Source of the DNA: Rhodothermus bifroesti | GTDB taxonomy: Bacteria > Bacteroidota > Rhodothermia > Rhodothermales > Rhodothermaceae | Length of the DNA stretch: 64,000 nt | NCBI RefSeq assembly: GCF_017908595.1 | Contig: NZ_JAGKTL010000004.1 | Location: 186,001-250,000, forward strand | Direction of reading: 5' to 3' | In this document: one piece after another, positions 56,347-64,000 of the stretch | How the letters are laid out: every line of letters starts with the position of its first letter | Position numbering within the stretch: the first letter of the stretch is position 1 | Program-made: the position numbers and the translations under genes | Notes under the pieces: generated by a model | Databases searched by the model: none | Told to the model about the DNA's origin: nothing | The model's input: only the letters and a program-made list of their open reading frames with translations

Positions 56347-59300
56347 CTAATCTACGTTATGAATGCTATTTAATACAAAAAAAAGTTTTTTATAGACATC
56401 CAAGATCGGCTTTTGTAAATATGGTTCTAGCTTCAGTAGGTGATTGTTATAATTATTATAACCTCTTGATATATTTTCACCATGAATTCTATACCAAAAT
56501 AAAGGTTCAGGGACAACACTAATTTTATACCCATTTAAACAAGCTCGAATTAAGAATTCCCAATCCTGAAAAGCAAAATTTCTTAATTCATTAAATCCTC
56601 CAAGCTCATGAAAAACCTTCAATTTAACAAGCATATTAGCATCTCCAAACACATTTTCAATACATCCAAGCTCTAAAAATCCGCCCAAAGGTATATATCT
56701 AGCAACAGGTAAATTAAGAACAAAATCTTCTTCTGTTTTAAAATTATCAGCGACACAAGTTAATATATCAGCATTAGAGTTAAGAGCTGCAGTGACAAAT
56801 GTCTCTATTTCAAAATCTTTTGCCAAATTATCATCATCCATAAACATAACATATTCTCCTGCAGCATGTTTTGCCCCCCAATTTCTTGCAGCACTAACGT
56901 ATTTATTTTTTTGTTTTAAAATTTTCCATTTCCTTTCTTCAAACAAGTCTTTTATATCTTCCAAAAACTGAAGCGCCTCAGGTTTGTCGCTTCCATCATC
57001 AACTAAAATAACCTCATACTTGTGATAAGTCTGGTTTAACAAAGAATTAATGGCTTGTTCAAGAAAATGTGGTCTATTGTAGTGCACTAAGCATACGCTA
57101 ACTAAAGGATTACGATCTTCAAGGTTTTTTAGATTCGGAGCACGCCTTTCTGCTCTGACCAATGCATTATGCCACGCAACCCAAGATTTTCTATTTTCTT
57201 TTTGATCAATTGCAGGTCTAGGTATAGGAGGAAGCTTAGTCAAAGCTTCACTGAGCGCATGAGCAAGCGCAGCGGCATTAGGCTCAAATAAGCAGTATGC
57301 ATGGTCATCAGGATGAATAAGCTCGGGGATACCTCCAACATTAGTTACAAGAAACCTCTTTTTAAGAGCTAAGCATTCATAAACCGATAGAGGAGAATTA
57401 TCCATACGATATGGCATAACAATAATAGCATTATTACAGTTTTTAATAAACTCCAAGGCTTCATTCCTATCAAAATTGGATAAAATATTGTTTTTCCAAG
57501 GCCAACCTTTAGATTTTTCCTGTATATATTTTTTACTATTTTTACCTTCAATTTTTACATCTTTTCCTAAAAAGAAGATTTGATCGATACAATGAGCTAC
57601 CTCAGTATTTTTTATAAGATTTAAAGCTTGGCAAAATATATCCAAGCCTTTTCTAAACTCTAATCTCCCAAAAAAAATCAGATTCAGCTTATTACACTTG
57701 TTCTTTTGCTCTGTATCTACACCAATCGCATCAAGAAATAATGGATAAGGTTTAATGATATAATTGGAAACATGAATATTCCATTGCTTTTCAATCCAAT
57801 TCTTCATATAGTTATTAATAAACCAAACATAATCCGCTCTCTTGACACTTTCTTTCTCCATAAAATCAATTTCTAAATCTCTAATACCAGGAAATTTTAG
57901 GTTATAGTGTAAGGTCCATAAGTGAGGACTATGTACACCAACAACAATTTTACAGTTTTTAAAAGCCAACCCTTGTTCTTTTGCAAGCATTGAATAAAAT
58001 GCCAATCCCTGCCATTCATGAAAATGAATAACATCAAAACATTCTTGATATTTTTTTAGCCATTGATAAATTTCAAAAGATAAAGCCCTAGACAAAGATG
58101 AGCTTTTTAAACTACAATTATTTAGCAATGCAGAAAGTGGTATAACTTGAATATTGTTTTTGCGATAGTACTCTATCCATTTATAAGTAGAATTATCTAC
58201 ACGATGTCCTACATATAAAACAGTCACTTGCCAATCATTTTGGGCCAATAATTCTGCCAGCTCTGTATATGCAGTACCTATACCTCCATTTTTTACTATG
58301 CCCACAAAATCTGAAGCCACAATACAAACGCTTTTACTATTTATTCTTTTAATATCCAAGCTAGACTTAAATTCGTTCCACCTTTTGGATAACGTTTCTA
58401 TAATTGAAAAGAGCTTTTCTGCATATATATCAAAAGAATATTTTTCTTCAGCATATCTTCTATATGCAAAAGAGTCATAAGTATCATTTATGACCTTATC
58501 AACAAATTCATTTACTGTTTTAAATAACCACGAATTAGGGTAAAGTTCATCAGAGCCAGGGAAATAATGGACTAATGGTTTAACACCACATGCTGCTGCT
58601 TCCAAAACACAATAAGGATTTCCTTCATGAATGCTTGGAAGTATCAAATAGTGTTTATCCTTCAACCAGTCAGATACATTTTCTATCCATCCACACCATA
58701 TCACATTATCCTTCAGATCTAATTTATCAATAATATTTGTTAGGTATTGATCAATTTCTTCATTTTGCTTTATGCCTCCAATATACAATTTATATTTTTT
58801 GTCTAGCTCAACAAGTGCTTTAATACATTGAATAAGCAAGGATGGGTTTTTCCTATAATTTAGATATCCCAAATAAGCTATGTTATATCCTTTTTCTTTG
58901 ACATGAAAGTCAAATTTATCAATATTAATTATACTTGGAATTATAGAAACGTCTAAAAAATCAAATTTGCTTAAATCTACTTTTTCCTTGATTAAATCGT
59001 AGACATGTTTGCTTGTAACAATCAGATGATCTACAAAATTCCAGTTTATGTTTTCAAACCAATTGGTAAAAACTTCATATCTATGCACTCTGCAAATCAC
59101 GGCTGCGGTTTTTCTTAACGTATTGCTGGCCTGTGCTAAAATGGCATCGGCCCACTCGAACCATACAACATCTGCCCAATCTAGAGCGTCTTGAATTAAT
59201 CGAAAGTCTACCTTTTCTGAGAAGTGATAGGCCCTGACATGATATCTTGCCGAAAATGCAATTTCTAAATCAATGATAAAACTGGTATTAGATCCACAAA

Positions 59301-59736
59301 TAAAAGCAACTTTAATAGGATTTTCTGCAGTTTTAGGTTTACCTAGGTCAACTGTTTCTTCCAATTTCAATTTAATGGACAGTATTTCATATATTACATT
59401 CCCCAATATTTTTTCATATTTTACTTTCTCTTCATCATCAATATTTACATGGTATTTTAAATAAACTTCAGCTGCCAAGTCTAGGTGATTATATTTAATT
59501 AACGTATCCAAAAGATTAAAAAAGGCTTTCGCAAATGAAGGATCATATTGCAAAGCTTTTTCAAAATACTCTACGGCTTTTTCTACTTCACCCAGCTCAG
59601 CATAAACCAACCCTGCATCGTTGAGTGCCCGAGTGTTTTGAGGATCTACATCCAATACAGATTTAAAAAATCGCAAAGCTTCTCCATATTCCCCCCTCAC
59701 AAAGAATTCTTCTCCGATTAAAACATTCCTGTTCAT
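56347..59736 (-). CDS. TPR module fused to three glycosyltransferase domains (GT4-GT4-GT2)
   Basis: The protein has 1129 residues. Residues 1-115 are TPR repeats (ALNDAGLVYAELGEVEKAVE). Residues about 140-460 form a first GT-B/GT4-like domain (IAYLGYLNYRKNPSLLIQ; HEGNPYCVLEAAACG near 372). Residues about 470-860 form a second GT4 (GGIGTAYTELAELL at about 482, FFGRLEFRKGLDIF, PLSVYECLALKKRFLVTNVGG near 779). Residues about 877-1129 form a GT2 domain (VSVCLVHYNRPHFLEQ, ILVDDGSD, MFMDDDN as the DxD). There is no signal peptide or membrane segment. Most of the DNA is strongly AT-rich with A/T-ending codons, unlike its neighbours, which suggests transfer. The TPR part is about half identical to that of the preceding sulfotransferase, 13 bases upstream. 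Likely builds a glycan on a protein or lipid carrier. Confidence 0.88.
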   Translation of the reverse strand: MNRNVLIGEEFFVRGEYGEALRFFKSVLDVDPQNTRALNDAGLVYAELGEVEKAVEYFEKALQYDPSFAKAFFNLLDTLIKYNHLDLAAEVYLKYHVNIDDEEKVKYEKILGNVIYEILSIKLKLEETVDLGKPKTAENPIKVAFICGSNTSFIIDLEIAFSARYHVRAYHFSEKVDFRLIQDALDWADVVWFEWADAILAQASNTLRKTAAVICRVHRYEVFTNWFENINWNFVDHLIVTSKHVYDLIKEKVDLSKFDFLDVSIIPSIINIDKFDFHVKEKGYNIAYLGYLNYRKNPSLLIQCIKALVELDKKYKLYIGGIKQNEEIDQYLTNIIDKLDLKDNVIWCGWIENVSDWLKDKHYLILPSIHEGNPYCVLEAAACGVKPLVHYFPGSDELYPNSWLFKTVNEFVDKVINDTYDSFAYRRYAEEKYSFDIYAEKLFSIIETLSKRWNEFKSSLDIKRINSKSVCIVASDFVGIVKNGGIGTAYTELAELLAQNDWQVTVLYVGHRVDNSTYKWIEYYRKNNIQVIPLSALLNNCSLKSSSLSRALSFEIYQWLKKYQECFDVIHFHEWQGLAFYSMLAKEQGLAFKNCKIVVGVHSPHLWTLHYNLKFPGIRDLEIDFMEKESVKRADYVWFINNYMKNWIEKQWNIHVSNYIIKPYPLFLDAIGVDTEQKNKCNKLNLIFFGRLEFRKGLDIFCQALNLIKNTEVAHCIDQIFFLGKDVKIEGKNSKKYIQEKSKGWPWKNNILSNFDRNEALEFIKNCNNAIIVMPYRMDNSPLSVYECLALKKRFLVTNVGGIPELIHPDDHAYCLFEPNAAALAHALSEALTKLPPIPRPAIDQKENRKSWVAWHNALVRAERRAPNLKNLEDRNPLVSVCLVHYNRPHFLEQAINSLLNQTYHKYEVILVDDGSDKPEALQFLEDIKDLFEERKWKILKQKNKYVSAARNWGAKHAAGEYVMFMDDDNLAKDFEIETFVTAALNSNADILTCVADNFKTEEDFVLNLPVARYIPLGGFLELGCIENVFGDANMLVKLKVFHELGGFNELRNFAFQDWEFLIRACLNGYKISVVPEPLFWYRIHGENISRGYNNYNNHLLKLEPYLQKPILDVYKKLFFVLNSIHNVD

Positions 59737-59749
59737 ATCTATATTTATT

Positions 59750-60952
59750 TTAGTTAATATTGAATTCCGAAATAATATCGAAGATAAAATCTACGTAGGC
59801 ACTTTCATGCTTTGACACAACATAGAGAGAGAAATACAAGAACTTTATCATGGGATTAACATTGTTTAAATGTAGAAGTTCTTGCATGTTGTGATGATAG
59901 TGACTCATATTTTCTTCAACAAAACTGTTAATATTTTCTAGATTTATTTTATGTTTTATTCCTATAAACTTCTTGATTTTTTCTATCTGTATGTTTCTGT
60001 GTTTATCGTTTAGCACATCTTCATAATTTACGATAATTTTGGGACTTGATCTTATATTTTTTAATATCAGCATATTATACTTAAACCAAAGTTTTAGGCC
60101 TTTTTCTAAAGGAAAATTGTTTCTTTTTTGTAGAGATTTGGCAACACTCAGAGGATTTCGCAGGCATACTACATATTTTATTTTATCATTAGGTATAACA
60201 TCCTTCCAAAAAGGAAGTGTAAGACATGTCCTTGGATCTTTCCATCCCCATATTTTATACTTAGACATGTTTTTGTTTATAAATTCTATAACTCTAAATT
60301 TTAAATCCCTAAATTTATTCGACCTTTCCCAACCCTCATAAAAAATCGGAGGCTCACTCCAGGTATATTCTTTGTCAGCTGGACTACCTAATCTCCTTAG
60401 TATTTCATCATTCACTTCGACAAAGAATTTATTCTCCCAGAAACCTTTTGGATTGTCCGGTGCTGGTTTCAAAAAATCTTCTGCTTCACCTAGATAAACT
60501 CCTAACAGATTTAATATTCTAGATATCGTAGACGTCCCACTACGATGCATTCCCAAGATGATTACTACTTGAGAAGATTCCTCTACCAAAGCTTTCTGAT
60601 CTTCAAAAATAGACTTATACTTTATTCTTTCTTCTCCATCTAAAATGTTCGATTTATATTGATGATATGCCTCTTGAGCTAAATCCCAAAAATCGTACTT
60701 CATTAACACGTCAAGCAAATTATAAAACGCACGCTCATGCGTAGGATCACAATGCAAAGCGTACTCGAAACACTCAACGGCTTTTTCTATCTGCCCGAGC
60801 TCAGCATAGGCCAGTCCGGCATCGTTTAAGGCATAGGTATTATCCGGATCCTCGCGTAATACCCTCTCGAAAAGATGCAACGCTTGCACATAAGATCCTT
60901 GTAGAAAATGATCTTCCCCTTGAAGCAATAGGGCCTTTAGGTTATCCTGCAT
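59750..60952 (-). CDS. TPR module fused to a sulfotransferase
   Basis: The protein has 400 residues. Residues 1-115 are TPR repeats (ALNDAGLAYAELGQIEKAVE). The rest is a sulfotransferase: the 5'-phosphosulfate loop VVIILGMHRSGTSTISRIL is near residue 133, then a PKGFWENKFFVEVND segment, WKDPRTCLTLPFW, and the 3'-phosphate-binding VVCLRNPLSVAKSLQKR. It should transfer sulfate from PAPS to a hydroxyl, probably of a glycan made by the downstream glycosyltransferase. The first ~250 bases have host-like composition and the remainder is AT-rich, so the gene looks assembled from two sources. It is first in the two-gene unit. Confidence 0.88.
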   Translation of the reverse strand: MQDNLKALLLQGEDHFLQGSYVQALHLFERVLREDPDNTYALNDAGLAYAELGQIEKAVECFEYALHCDPTHERAFYNLLDVLMKYDFWDLAQEAYHQYKSNILDGEERIKYKSIFEDQKALVEESSQVVIILGMHRSGTSTISRILNLLGVYLGEAEDFLKPAPDNPKGFWENKFFVEVNDEILRRLGSPADKEYTWSEPPIFYEGWERSNKFRDLKFRVIEFINKNMSKYKIWGWKDPRTCLTLPFWKDVIPNDKIKYVVCLRNPLSVAKSLQKRNNFPLEKGLKLWFKYNMLILKNIRSSPKIIVNYEDVLNDKHRNIQIEKIKKFIGIKHKINLENINSFVEENMSHYHHNMQELLHLNNVNPMIKFLYFSLYVVSKHESAYVDFIFDIISEFNIN

Positions 60953-61013: not shown

Positions 61014-61886
61014 TCAGCCTTGAGTTTGCCCTGAGCTGCGTGGATCCAGATTAAAAAACGCGCAAAGTGCCTCAAAAAGCTCGGGGTGGCGATGGGCCAA
61101 TAGCTCTGGCCGCTCGAAAAAGTTTTCCACTGCTACGGCAAAAAATTCGGCCGCACTGGTGGCTGCATATCGGCGCAGCACGGACCGTCCCTGACGCACT
61201 TTGACCATTTCTGCCCGCATCAGTCGCCGCCAAGCCTCAGCCGAAGCTGGATTAAGCAAGGTTGGAATCCCGTCCGCGTCTAGATTCTCAAAATCAAACA
61301 AATGCGCCAGCTCGTGCAGCACCACATTATCTCCGTCATGAGGGACTGCCCATCCCATCTCTACAGCCTTTGCCGACAGGATCACGGGTCCTTGTGCATG
61401 TGCCATGCCCTCATAGTCTCCCAAGGCATCTTCATCGTAGTCTTCGTTAAACCGACCCGCGTAAAAGAGAAATGTCCGACGTGCAGGCAGCTCCCAGTTA
61501 GGACGGCCATGAAGCAGTAGCGCAGCCCCTGCAGCTACCGCCAAGCGTAGCGTTTCCGTGACTTCAACCCCTACGCCTTCAAACCGCTGCTCGTCCAAAA
61601 AGAACTGCACGTCGCGCTCAAAGCGTCGCCGTCCTACTGCGTCTAGGCCTCGATAGAACGGCACATGCGCTTCCAACCATAGGCGCCACGCCGCGGGAAA
61701 CGGTTGTCGCGCCACCCGCCAGCGCCGCCACGAAGGCCACATTCCCCATGCAAAGACCCCAAAGGCTATCAGCGCACCTACCCACATTCCTATACCCATC
61801 CGCACTCCTATCCAGCTAACCATTCCTCCCAGCACAAAAGCCAACACCCCGTAAACCCCAACTACAGCACGACGGACAATTTGCAT
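61014..61886 (-). CDS. MtfA-like (M90) zinc peptidase with N-terminal membrane segments
   Basis: The protein has 290 residues. The zinc site is VVLHELAHLFDFENLDADGIP with a later Glu in SAAEFFAVAVENFFERP. RTFLFYAGRFNED and SAKAVEMGWAV are as in MtfA. Two hydrophobic stretches at the N-terminus (about 5-50) anchor it, as in many non-proteobacterial members. E. coli MtfA binds Mlc and has aminopeptidase activity; here the substrate is unknown. It ends 61 bases upstream of the TPR-sulfotransferase gene and diverges from flgF. Confidence 0.9.
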   Translation of the reverse strand: MQIVRRAVVGVYGVLAFVLGGMVSWIGVRMGIGMWVGALIAFGVFAWGMWPSWRRWRVARQPFPAAWRLWLEAHVPFYRGLDAVGRRRFERDVQFFLDEQRFEGVGVEVTETLRLAVAAGAALLLHGRPNWELPARRTFLFYAGRFNEDYDEDALGDYEGMAHAQGPVILSAKAVEMGWAVPHDGDNVVLHELAHLFDFENLDADGIPTLLNPASAEAWRRLMRAEMVKVRQGRSVLRRYAATSAAEFFAVAVENFFERPELLAHRHPELFEALCAFFNLDPRSSGQTQG

Positions 61887-62001
61887 GATATCGACCGTTT
61901 GGCCTATTCCATAAGGAAAAGTTGCCCTCTCTCCCGGGAAAATTATGCCCTACATGGCCTGTCTGCACAGGCTAAGGCGTCATTTTAAAGCCTCAAGCAG
62001 C

Positions 62002-62017
62002 TTGGCAGCGTCTTTGC
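62002..62017 (+). promoter_or_regulatory. Candidate sigma-54 promoter of the flagellar rod genes
   Basis: TTGGCAGCGTCTTTGC contains GG (62004-62005), exactly 10 bases, then GC (62016-62017). This is the -24/-12 spacing required by sigma-54, and it matches TTGGCA-N5-TTGC well. It lies 43 bases before the flgF ATG. Presence of RpoN cannot be checked here. Confidence 0.5.
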
Positions 62018-62059
62018 CGTCGGCATTTCACGTGCGCAGCTAACCTTCTACGGCCCACC

Positions 62060-62788
62060 ATGCTGCTTCGTCTCCAAAACGCTGCTGCTTCGATGACCGA
62101 GGCCTTGCGCCAGCAAGAACGGTTGGCCAACAATTTGGCCAACGTCAACACGGTTGGCTACAAACAAGAACGCTTTTTTGTGGAAGCCCTAAATGAACAA
62201 CTGGACCTGGAACGGGCACCCCGCAGCGACCGCCGTCTTGCTCAATGGAATGAGCTCACGCAAGGTCCCTTAGAACCTACCGGCAACCCGCTCGACGTCG
62301 CCATCGAAGGCGAAGGGTTTTTTGTGGTCACCGACGAAACAACCGGGGCCACCTTCTACACCCGCTCTGGACAATTTATGCTCGACACTGAAGGGGTGCT
62401 GAGAACTATCGATGGCCTATTGGTTGAAGGTCAAAACGGCCCTATCCGCCTTTCACCCCTTGAGCAGCGCCAGCCCCTTTCCATCAGTCAAGACGGAGTG
62501 GTTCGTGCCGGAGAGCGCGAAATCGACCGCCTGCAGCTTGTACGCTTTGCCCACCCCGAAGCCCTATTCCGCGTGACAGGGGCTCGCTTCGAGGCTGCCG
62601 GCCAAACACCAGAACCCCTCGAAAATCCACGCCTACGTCCTGGATTTCTCGAAGGCAGCAACGTCAACCCTGTGCTCGCCATGACCGAAATGATCGAGCA
62701 CTTTCATCGATTTGAAACCCAGCAAAAAGTCATTCAAACGACCGACCAACTGCTGGGACAAATTACCCGTGACCTTGGCAAATTCTAA
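62060..62788 (+). CDS. flgF: Flagellar basal-body proximal rod protein FlgF
   Basis: The protein has 242 residues. The N-terminal rod signature is EALRQQERLANNLANVNTVGYKQERFFVEA. The middle is PLEPTGNPLDVAIEGEGFFVVTDE...FYTRSGQFMLDTEGVL. The C-terminal FLEGSNVNPVLAMTEMIEHFHRFETQQKVIQT matches the FlgE/F/G family. It is shorter and more divergent than the following FlgG, which fits FlgF. The flgG start is 18 bases past its stop. The protein is exported by the flagellar type III system and forms the rod. Confidence 0.92.
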   Translation: MLLRLQNAAASMTEALRQQERLANNLANVNTVGYKQERFFVEALNEQLDLERAPRSDRRLAQWNELTQGPLEPTGNPLDVAIEGEGFFVVTDETTGATFYTRSGQFMLDTEGVLRTIDGLLVEGQNGPIRLSPLEQRQPLSISQDGVVRAGEREIDRLQLVRFAHPEALFRVTGARFEAAGQTPEPLENPRLRPGFLEGSNVNPVLAMTEMIEHFHRFETQQKVIQTTDQLLGQITRDLGKF

Positions 62789-62806
62789 ACCAACCAGCGT
62801 GCGCTT

Positions 62807-63595
62807 ATGCTACGTGCGCTCCGAACTGCTGCCCTGGGCATGAACGCCCAGCAAACCGGTGTCGATACCATTGCCCACAACCTGGCGAACGCTAATACGA
62901 CCGGCTTTAAACAGGCCCGGGTGGTCTTTCAAGACCTGCTCTACCAGACCATCCAAACACCTGGCCAAGAAGAAGCCCAGGGCATCACACCGCCAGCCTC
63001 GATTCAGCTAGGCAGCGGGGTGGCCATTGTGGCCACTGTACGTCAATTTACCCAGGGAAGCCTTATCGAAACCGGTAACGCACTGGACCTTGCCATCAAC
63101 GGTGACGGCTTTTTCCAAATCCGTCGGCCCGATGGATCGATTGTCTACACCCGCGACGGGACCTTCACGCTCAATGCCAACGGTACCCTGGTCACGCAAA
63201 CGGGCCTACCGTTGGAACCAGAATTAAACGTCCCGCCCGACACCATCGAAATCCACATCAGCCAGGACGGGGCAGTCTCGGTAAGGCTCCAGGGCGCAAC
63301 AGAAAGCGTGGAAATCGGCCAACTCGAACTCGCACGCTTCCCTAACCCAGCTGGACTACGGGCCATTGGAGGTAACCTTTACGAGCAGACCGAAGCTAGT
63401 GGCTTCCCTATCCTAGGTCCACCGGGTGAGGCCGGGTTTGGCACCGTTCGGCAAGGCTTCCTGGAGGCTGCTAATGTAGACATCGTACAAGAAATGGTTA
63501 ATCTGATCACCGCGCAGCGGGCCTACGAGATCAACTCCAAAATGGTCACCACCAGCGAGGAAATGCTCCAAACGGCTAGCCAAATGAAACGGTAA
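62807..63595 (+). CDS. flgG: Flagellar basal-body distal rod protein FlgG
   Basis: 262 residues, the typical FlgG length. Signatures are MLRALRTAALGMNAQQTGVDT at the start, IAHNLANANTTGFKQARVVFQDL, SLIETGNALDLAINGDGFFQI, YTRDGTFTLNANGTLVTQTG, and the C-terminal FLEAANVDIVQEMVNLITAQRAYEINSKMVTTSEEM. The stop overlaps the next start (TAATG), so the partial flgA is likely co-translated. Confidence 0.97.
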   Translation: MLRALRTAALGMNAQQTGVDTIAHNLANANTTGFKQARVVFQDLLYQTIQTPGQEEAQGITPPASIQLGSGVAIVATVRQFTQGSLIETGNALDLAINGDGFFQIRRPDGSIVYTRDGTFTLNANGTLVTQTGLPLEPELNVPPDTIEIHISQDGAVSVRLQGATESVEIGQLELARFPNPAGLRAIGGNLYEQTEASGFPILGPPGEAGFGTVRQGFLEAANVDIVQEMVNLITAQRAYEINSKMVTTSEEMLQTASQMKR

Positions 63596-64000
63596 TGAAA
63601 CGGGCTCTTCCCATAAGTGTCGCTCTCTGGACCCTGATGGGGCCGGCCATTGCCTCCGACCCCATCGACACGCGGCTTTTGGTTGCCGCCGACTCGCTGC
63701 TTGCAGCGGCTTTTCCAACGCTGCACGGTCACCTCAAGGCCAGCCTAATGCGGTATCAGGTGACGGCCAGTGGGCCCTTGCAGCTTCGGTTACCACCCAC
63801 CACCAAAGATCCCATAGGACACCTGCAGGTCGATGTATGGGTCGCCGATGCTCAGCAGCTCTGGCGCAAAGTCGGCTGGGCGCTCTTTTTTGTGGCTCGC
63901 TACGATTCGGTTGTTGTTGCGCGACGTACGTTCCAGCGCGGGGATAACGTATCGGGAGCTGACCTGGCCATCGTCTGGCAGGAAACCACGCGGCTACGTA
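63595..64000 (+). CDS. flgA: Flagellar P-ring assembly chaperone FlgA, truncated by the window end
   Basis: The open frame starts at the ATG at 63595, overlapping the flgG stop by one base, and runs off the right edge after 135 codons. It has a signal peptide (MKRALPISVALWTLMGPAIA). Near the cut is a SAF-type segment, VARRTFQRGDNVSGADLAIVWQE, typical of FlgA. Position after flgG supports the call. FlgA helps assemble the P-ring in the periplasm. Confidence 0.85.
   Translation, partial: MKRALPISVALWTLMGPAIASDPIDTRLLVAADSLLAAAFPTLHGHLKASLMRYQVTASGPLQLRLPPTTKDPIGHLQVDVWVADAQQLWRKVGWALFFVARYDSVVVARRTFQRGDNVSGADLAIVWQETTRLR

Follow-up and report, generated by a model that had tools for sequence, protein, structure and literature searches.

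Two adjacent genes share an N-terminal TPR module

The window, a stretch of 64,000 nucleotides from Rhodothermus bifroesti, carries two neighbouring genes that both begin with a TPR module and lie beside a flagellar operon. The features of the locus are as follows.

56347..59736 (-): TPR-GT4-GT4-GT2 gene, 1129 aa (open reading frame; Pfam)
56389..57114 (-): GT2 domain, aa about 875-1116 (Pfam Glycos_transf_2, 97.1 bits)
57232..58344 (-): second GT4 domain, aa about 465-835 (Pfam), at the position held by the methyltransferase in relatives
58387..59319 (-): first GT4 domain, aa 140-450, with HEGNPYCVLEAAACG at 370, an ortholog of the GT4 in the TPR-GT4-methyltransferase found across the genus
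59401..59736 (-): TPR module of the glycosyltransferase protein, aa 1-112 (Pfam, alignment, model)
59750..60952 (-): TPR-sulfotransferase gene, 400 aa (open reading frame; Pfam TPR and Sulfotransfer_3 PF13469 above cut-off)
59954..60565 (-): sulfotransferase domain, aa 130-333, with GMHRSGTS at 134, WGWKDPRT at 235 and RNPLSVAKSLQKR at 265 (Pfam; motif positions)
60605..60952 (-): TPR module of the sulfotransferase protein, aa 1-116, three repeats and a capping helix (56% identity to the other module; model)
61014..61886 (-): mtfA-like gene, conserved as the immediate upstream neighbour of the TPR gene(s) (NCBIfam MtfA match, synteny)
62001..62018 (+): sigma-54-like promoter site 5' of flgF, conserved in the genus (pattern scan, alignment)
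62060..63999 (+): flgF, flgG and the start of flgA, a divergent flagellar operon (open reading frames, synteny)

A preliminary description of this DNA, made from the letters alone, had reported two co-directional genes 13 bases apart, with a flagellar gene set about 1.1 kb away. The open reading frame list agrees with it in coordinates, strand and gap, and the start of flgF at 62060 (+) lies 1.1 kb from the TPR-sulfotransferase gene; flgH-I-J-N-K-L continue the flg operon beyond the edge of the window. Both frames are open and long and contain recognisable catalytic motifs, those of the glycosyltransferases in the 1129-aa protein having been read by eye. The mtfA-like gene matches the NCBIfam MtfA model at 7.9e-18, far under the model's own cut-off.

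The same description held that the two proteins share a TPR module and then switch to unrelated enzymes. Pairwise alignment of the modules gave 61 identities in 108 positions (56%) with 72% positives (E=9e-33), and Pfam assigned TPR and Sulfotransfer_3 to one protein and TPR, two Glycos_transf_1/4 regions and Glycos_transf_2 to the other, as had been claimed. The next-best match to the module in the R. bifroesti genome is an ordinary TPR (E=4.5e-8), indicating that the two modules form a subfamily of their own within this genome. Their identity and the whole-genome search thus place both in one subfamily rather than in unrelated TPR subfamilies. A scan of genome contigs with the glycosyltransferase TPR module returned weak, general TPR matches only.

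Structure prediction modelled the TPR of the sulfotransferase protein with a pLDDT of about 81-97 over aa 1-100 and that of the glycosyltransferase protein with about 80-96 over aa 1-90. The catalytic parts were modelled poorly (mean pLDDT 57 and 50) from the one or two sequences that entered the prediction. Against the PDB, the modules match the TPRs of OGT and SPINDLY among the top hits, with designed TPRs scoring higher still. Residues N43, L47, A50 and E51 of repeat 2 are identical in all six sequences compared. Between the two modules, the presumed concave positions are not clearly more conserved (8/15) than the other non-signature positions (28/63). In a tree of the ten TPR modules, the branching distinguished neither copy from original nor the time of the duplication.

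The sulfotransferase fusion is seen in one genome of the class

The sulfotransferase domain scores 34.1 bits against Sulfotransfer_3 (PF13469), which is over the curated cut-off of 27, yet the match is weak. By-eye comparison with known motifs located a 5'-phosphosulfate loop (GMHRSGTS at 134) and a 3'-phosphate binding motif (RNPLSVAKSLQKR at 265). Moreover, an APS kinase is encoded in the same genome (APS_kinase E=2.6e-62), which makes PAPS a plausible donor for this enzyme. Relatives of the domain occur in only four other genomes of the class, at 30-36% identity, and the nearest of them, in G162, lacks a TPR. Among the 245 class genomes the TPR-sulfotransferase fusion was observed once and is unique to R. 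bifroesti. The sulfotransferase plug-in is the novel part of the locus; no relevant paper on sulfated flagellin or on a sulfotransferase linked to flagellin came up in a survey of the open-access literature.

The TPR-GT4 core is conserved in place and the C-terminal enzyme varies

The TPR module is present in all seven genomes of the genus, in two copies in R. bifroesti and in one copy in each of the other six. In these six genomes the mtfA-like gene precedes the TPR gene and flgF is transcribed divergently, and histidine kinase and response regulator genes stand on the opposite side where the contig extends far enough. Five of the six relatives, those whose gene could be read whole, encode a TPR-GT4-methyltransferase protein of 711-731 aa: a Pfam scan of three gave TPR, GT4 and Methyltransf_23, and the other two align over their full length at 78-95%. 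The sixth gene, in G004, is split over two contigs (C209, C187) and fits the same architecture.

Residues 1-450 of the window glycosyltransferase, comprising TPR and GT4, are 44-48% identical over 430-461 aa to the genes of the five relatives, and its GT4-GT2 part has no relative in the 244 other class genomes (E<=1e-40). These comparisons indicate that the TPR-GT4 core is an old part that has kept its place and that the C-terminal enzyme was exchanged, the methyltransferase of the relatives giving way to GT4-GT2 in R. bifroesti. The TPR-sulfotransferase gene is an addition that carries its own TPR copy. Listed by genome search, the fusions to the module are GT4-methyltransferase in the five relatives read whole and GT4-GT4-GT2 and sulfotransferase in R. 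bifroesti. The proposed plug-in design around a shared module is therefore well supported, by the syntenic TPR-GT4 core, the changing C-terminal enzyme and the second TPR with a sulfotransferase; the pairing of sulfation with glycosylation, which was part of the same proposal, is confined to a single class genome. To judge from the genomes compared, the locus is variable and the pairing one local state of it, not a conserved system.

The two modules might instead bind each other or a scaffold, thereby assembling a complex of sulfotransferase and glycosyltransferase in which the catalytic domains choose the substrate, and flagellin could still be that substrate. TPRs are capable of self-association, and the modules belong to one subfamily and are encoded by genes 13 bases apart. 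However, each of the five relatives has only one such protein, a whole TPR-GT4-methyltransferase, and lacks a further TPR partner of this type, indicating that pairing of the modules is not their ancestral role, and the precedent of FlmG is one of substrate binding (PMC7591256). We consider such a complex unlikely.

Base composition and recombination at the locus

Both TPR genes form an AT-rich island whose sharp borders coincide exactly with the gene pair, at about 31% GC compared with about 56% in the flanks. The exception is the TPR part of the sulfotransferase gene, which reaches up to 50% GC. This pattern fits a recent import of the catalytic parts. Together with the occurrence of the pair in one species only, the low GC content could also be taken to mean that the pair is a recently acquired island, non-functional or unexpressed, with a TPR duplication that arose by chance. 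The frames are long and open and carry catalytic motifs, however, and the gene that the rest of the genus has at this position is an ortholog of the TPR-GT4 part, which makes an inert island very improbable.

Exchange within the gene can also be followed between two close relatives, G001 and G002, which are about 95% identical over 19 kb. Their TPR-GT4-methyltransferase genes are 100% identical in codons 101-180 and 361-580, and codons about 221-300 show 69-75% nucleotide identity. This mosaic GT4, seen on comparing L044:7099-9234 with L043:7327-9462, is the signature of allele exchange by recombination inside GT4. In G003, the centre of the TPR-GT4-methyltransferase gene drops to 24-42% GC between normal flanks.

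G003 additionally has five extra AT-rich genes (L045:9607-13903 (-), 37-51% GC) between the mtfA-like gene and the TPR-GT4-methyltransferase gene, which encode a GFO/IDH oxidoreductase, a PylC-like ATP-grasp protein, a HAD hydrolase, a GT2 and a methyltransferase.

Linkage to flagellar genes extends beyond the genus

At a threshold of E<=1e-25 for a core match, 19 of the 245 class genomes are carriers. The domains around the core differ outside the genus: G172 has TPR-GT4 with no further domain, G206 has TPR-GT4-methyltransferase with an extra C-terminal part to which no domain was assigned, G156, G161, G163 and G166 have GT4 after weaker TPR-like N-termini, and the core homologue of G222 has a GT2 in front. 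The nearest gene of the flg cluster is 1.9 kb away in G156, 0.5 kb in both G161 and G163, 1.9 kb in G166 and 1.8 kb in G167. In G172, flgF lies at 1.2 kb and an mtfA-like gene only 0.14 kb away; in G206, an HDOD gene, the last of the flg cluster, lies at 0.3 kb and flgL at 1.3 kb. In seven genomes outside the genus, drawn from five families (six with that of the window), a core homologue thus has an flg-cluster gene at a distance of 0.3-1.9 kb. A further core homologue, in G183, is 1.1 kb from fliD, and the stretches read around the core homologues of G168, G222 and G223 contain no flg gene.

The core homologue of G223 (L084:1700-5500 (-)), which also has a GT2 in front, lies near NeuB/PseI-like and PseG-like genes, by eye a nonulosonate-synthesis neighbourhood.

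A Flagellin_N match was obtained in 18 of the 19 carriers compared with 90 of the 245 class genomes (Fisher p=6e-8, uncorrected for kinship). The Flagellin_N model also matches FlgL, so that this measure reflects flagellar genes and not flagellin alone.

The putative promoter site upstream of flgF reads TTGGCA-N4-CTTTGC in the window and TGGCA-N5-TTTGC in relatives. It was found in the five relatives with an alignable or scannable upstream region, in four by pattern scan and in the fifth by alignment, and RpoN is encoded in the R. bifroesti genome. Within the window by itself the pattern is no rarer than chance, and the evidence is its conserved position. Sigma-54-like sites also precede the stand-alone TPR-GT4 genes, 67 nt (G172) and 62 nt (G206) before the start codons, where 0.0025 sites per 100 bp are expected from a count that includes those sites themselves.

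Between the mtfA-like gene and flgF we also observed a direct repeat, GGAAAAGTTGCCC / GGAAAATTATGCC, at 61915 and 61937 (+). The two copies are 22 bases apart (21 in relatives); the repeat is conserved in the genus, and none was seen in the other flagellar stretches read. It looks like a two-site binding site for a regulator, which we regard as putative.

The preliminary description had named flagellin, a T9SS cargo or a scaffold as possible targets. In the loci and flagellar genes compared, nothing pointed to a T9SS cargo or a scaffold. The flagellar linkage now extends to five further families, to co-occurrence with Flagellin_N and to sigma-54-like sites, and is stronger than the sequence of the window alone could reveal; docking onto flagellin itself we infer from FlmG (PMC7591256). 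Alternatively, the enzymes could act on a surface polysaccharide, a lipid-linked glycan or another surface protein, leaving the flagellum untouched despite the neighbouring flg genes. Polysaccharide clusters typically contain GT4, GT2, methyltransferase and sulfotransferase domains, and the R. bifroesti genome has such a cluster with sulfotransferases. The core homologues of G168, G222 and G223, with no flg gene in the stretches read, point the same way, as do the nonulosonate-like genes recognised by eye in G223. Against this stand the flg adjacency in six families, the flagellin-bearing carriers and the sigma-54-like sites, and we judge a non-flagellar target to be distinctly improbable.

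Proposed function and comparison with known systems

Taken together, these data suggest that this is probably a flagellar, most likely flagellin, modification locus, wherein a constant TPR docking module is combined with exchangeable catalytic modules. A second GT2, SunS-like and placed between fliD and the two flagellin genes, and the APS kinase also favour this reading. Speaking against it are the unremarkable conservation of the presumed concave TPR positions, the core homologues away from flg genes, the weak Pfam match of the sulfotransferase domain and the description of R. marinus as non-motile. The N-terminal TPR would bind one common cytoplasmic protein substrate, most likely flagellin before export, and hold it for whichever catalytic modules stand behind. 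The ancestral unit would be TPR-GT4, to which a methyltransferase was added in the rest of the genus. In R. bifroesti, a second GT4 and a GT2 took the place of the methyltransferase, and a second TPR copy was fused to a sulfotransferase. The glycan may then be extended and finally capped with sulfate where relatives use methyl; the order of the sugars, the use of PAPS and the role of sulfate as a cap are likewise inferred. A more far-reaching version, which we hold to be less likely than not, is a constant flagellin-docking TPR platform behind which glycosyl-, methyl- and sulfotransferases are exchanged within the genus by recombination, giving a species-specific flagellar glycan and, in R. 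bifroesti, a filament with a sulfated glycan, a feature for which the literature survey turned up no bacterial example.

Docking of the TPR to flagellin before export is proposed because of the analogy with FlmG of Caulobacter crescentus: two-hybrid assays show its TPR domain binding flagellins, and their modification requires this domain (PMC7591256). FlmG is a soluble, flagella-linked protein with an N-terminal TPR and a C-terminal GT-B glycosyltransferase (PMC7591256). Likewise, the locus described here has an N-terminal TPR fused to a GT-B type glycosyltransferase (Pfam TPR and GT4) and a genetic link to flagellar genes (synteny in six families; Flagellin_N in 18 of 19 carriers). The N-terminal region of FlmG is much longer (constructs of 1-313 aa), and the protein has one catalytic domain and transfers pseudaminic acid, whereas R. 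bifroesti has a TPR of about 115 aa and a GT4 enzyme; the likeness is drawn from domain order and gene setting. Additionally, extra catalytic domains are fused and swapped between species in the Rhodothermus locus, with a sulfotransferase on a second TPR protein.

O-GlcNAc transferase and SPINDLY similarly place TPRs ahead of a GT-B enzyme, but the modules match TPRs generally, have few repeats and precede GT4 rather than GT41. Flagellar glycosylation islands of the Maf / FlgGT type resemble the locus in that variable, horizontally exchanged glycan genes adjoin flagellar genes, and a SunS-like GT2 occurs at fliD-fliC in the genus. This AT-rich gene lies between fliD and two flagellin genes in R. 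bifroesti and G002 (L057:7897-9252 (+) and L058:7359-8522 (+), 40% and 45% GC). In contrast to such islands, no Maf was found in the stretches read, domains are swapped behind a constant TPR, and a sulfotransferase is involved.

With one docking module, several swappable enzymes and one target, the locus is a simple and testable example of how protein glycosylation evolves by modules, and flagellin modification of the FlmG kind would now reach into a deep lineage of the Bacteroidota. Provided that the module does bind flagellin, attaching other enzymes to it would be a general route for directing modifications to the filament, and the presence of the sulfotransferase would suggest flagella that carry sulfate. 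The flagella-linked locus is also a recombination hot spot in this lineage, perhaps under phage or other selection.

R. bifroesti has two tandem flagellins, encoded on a contig other than that of the window (C3:472-475 kb), in which Ser and Thr make up 23-26% of residues 141-210 and 11% elsewhere. R. marinus, the type species of the genus, was reported to be non-motile, and no flagella were seen on it (PMC3035238); the related strain RA is motile (PMC4943939). Despite the non-motile description of R. marinus (PMC3035238), flg genes are present in the genomes of the genus, and most of these genomes encode full flagellins.
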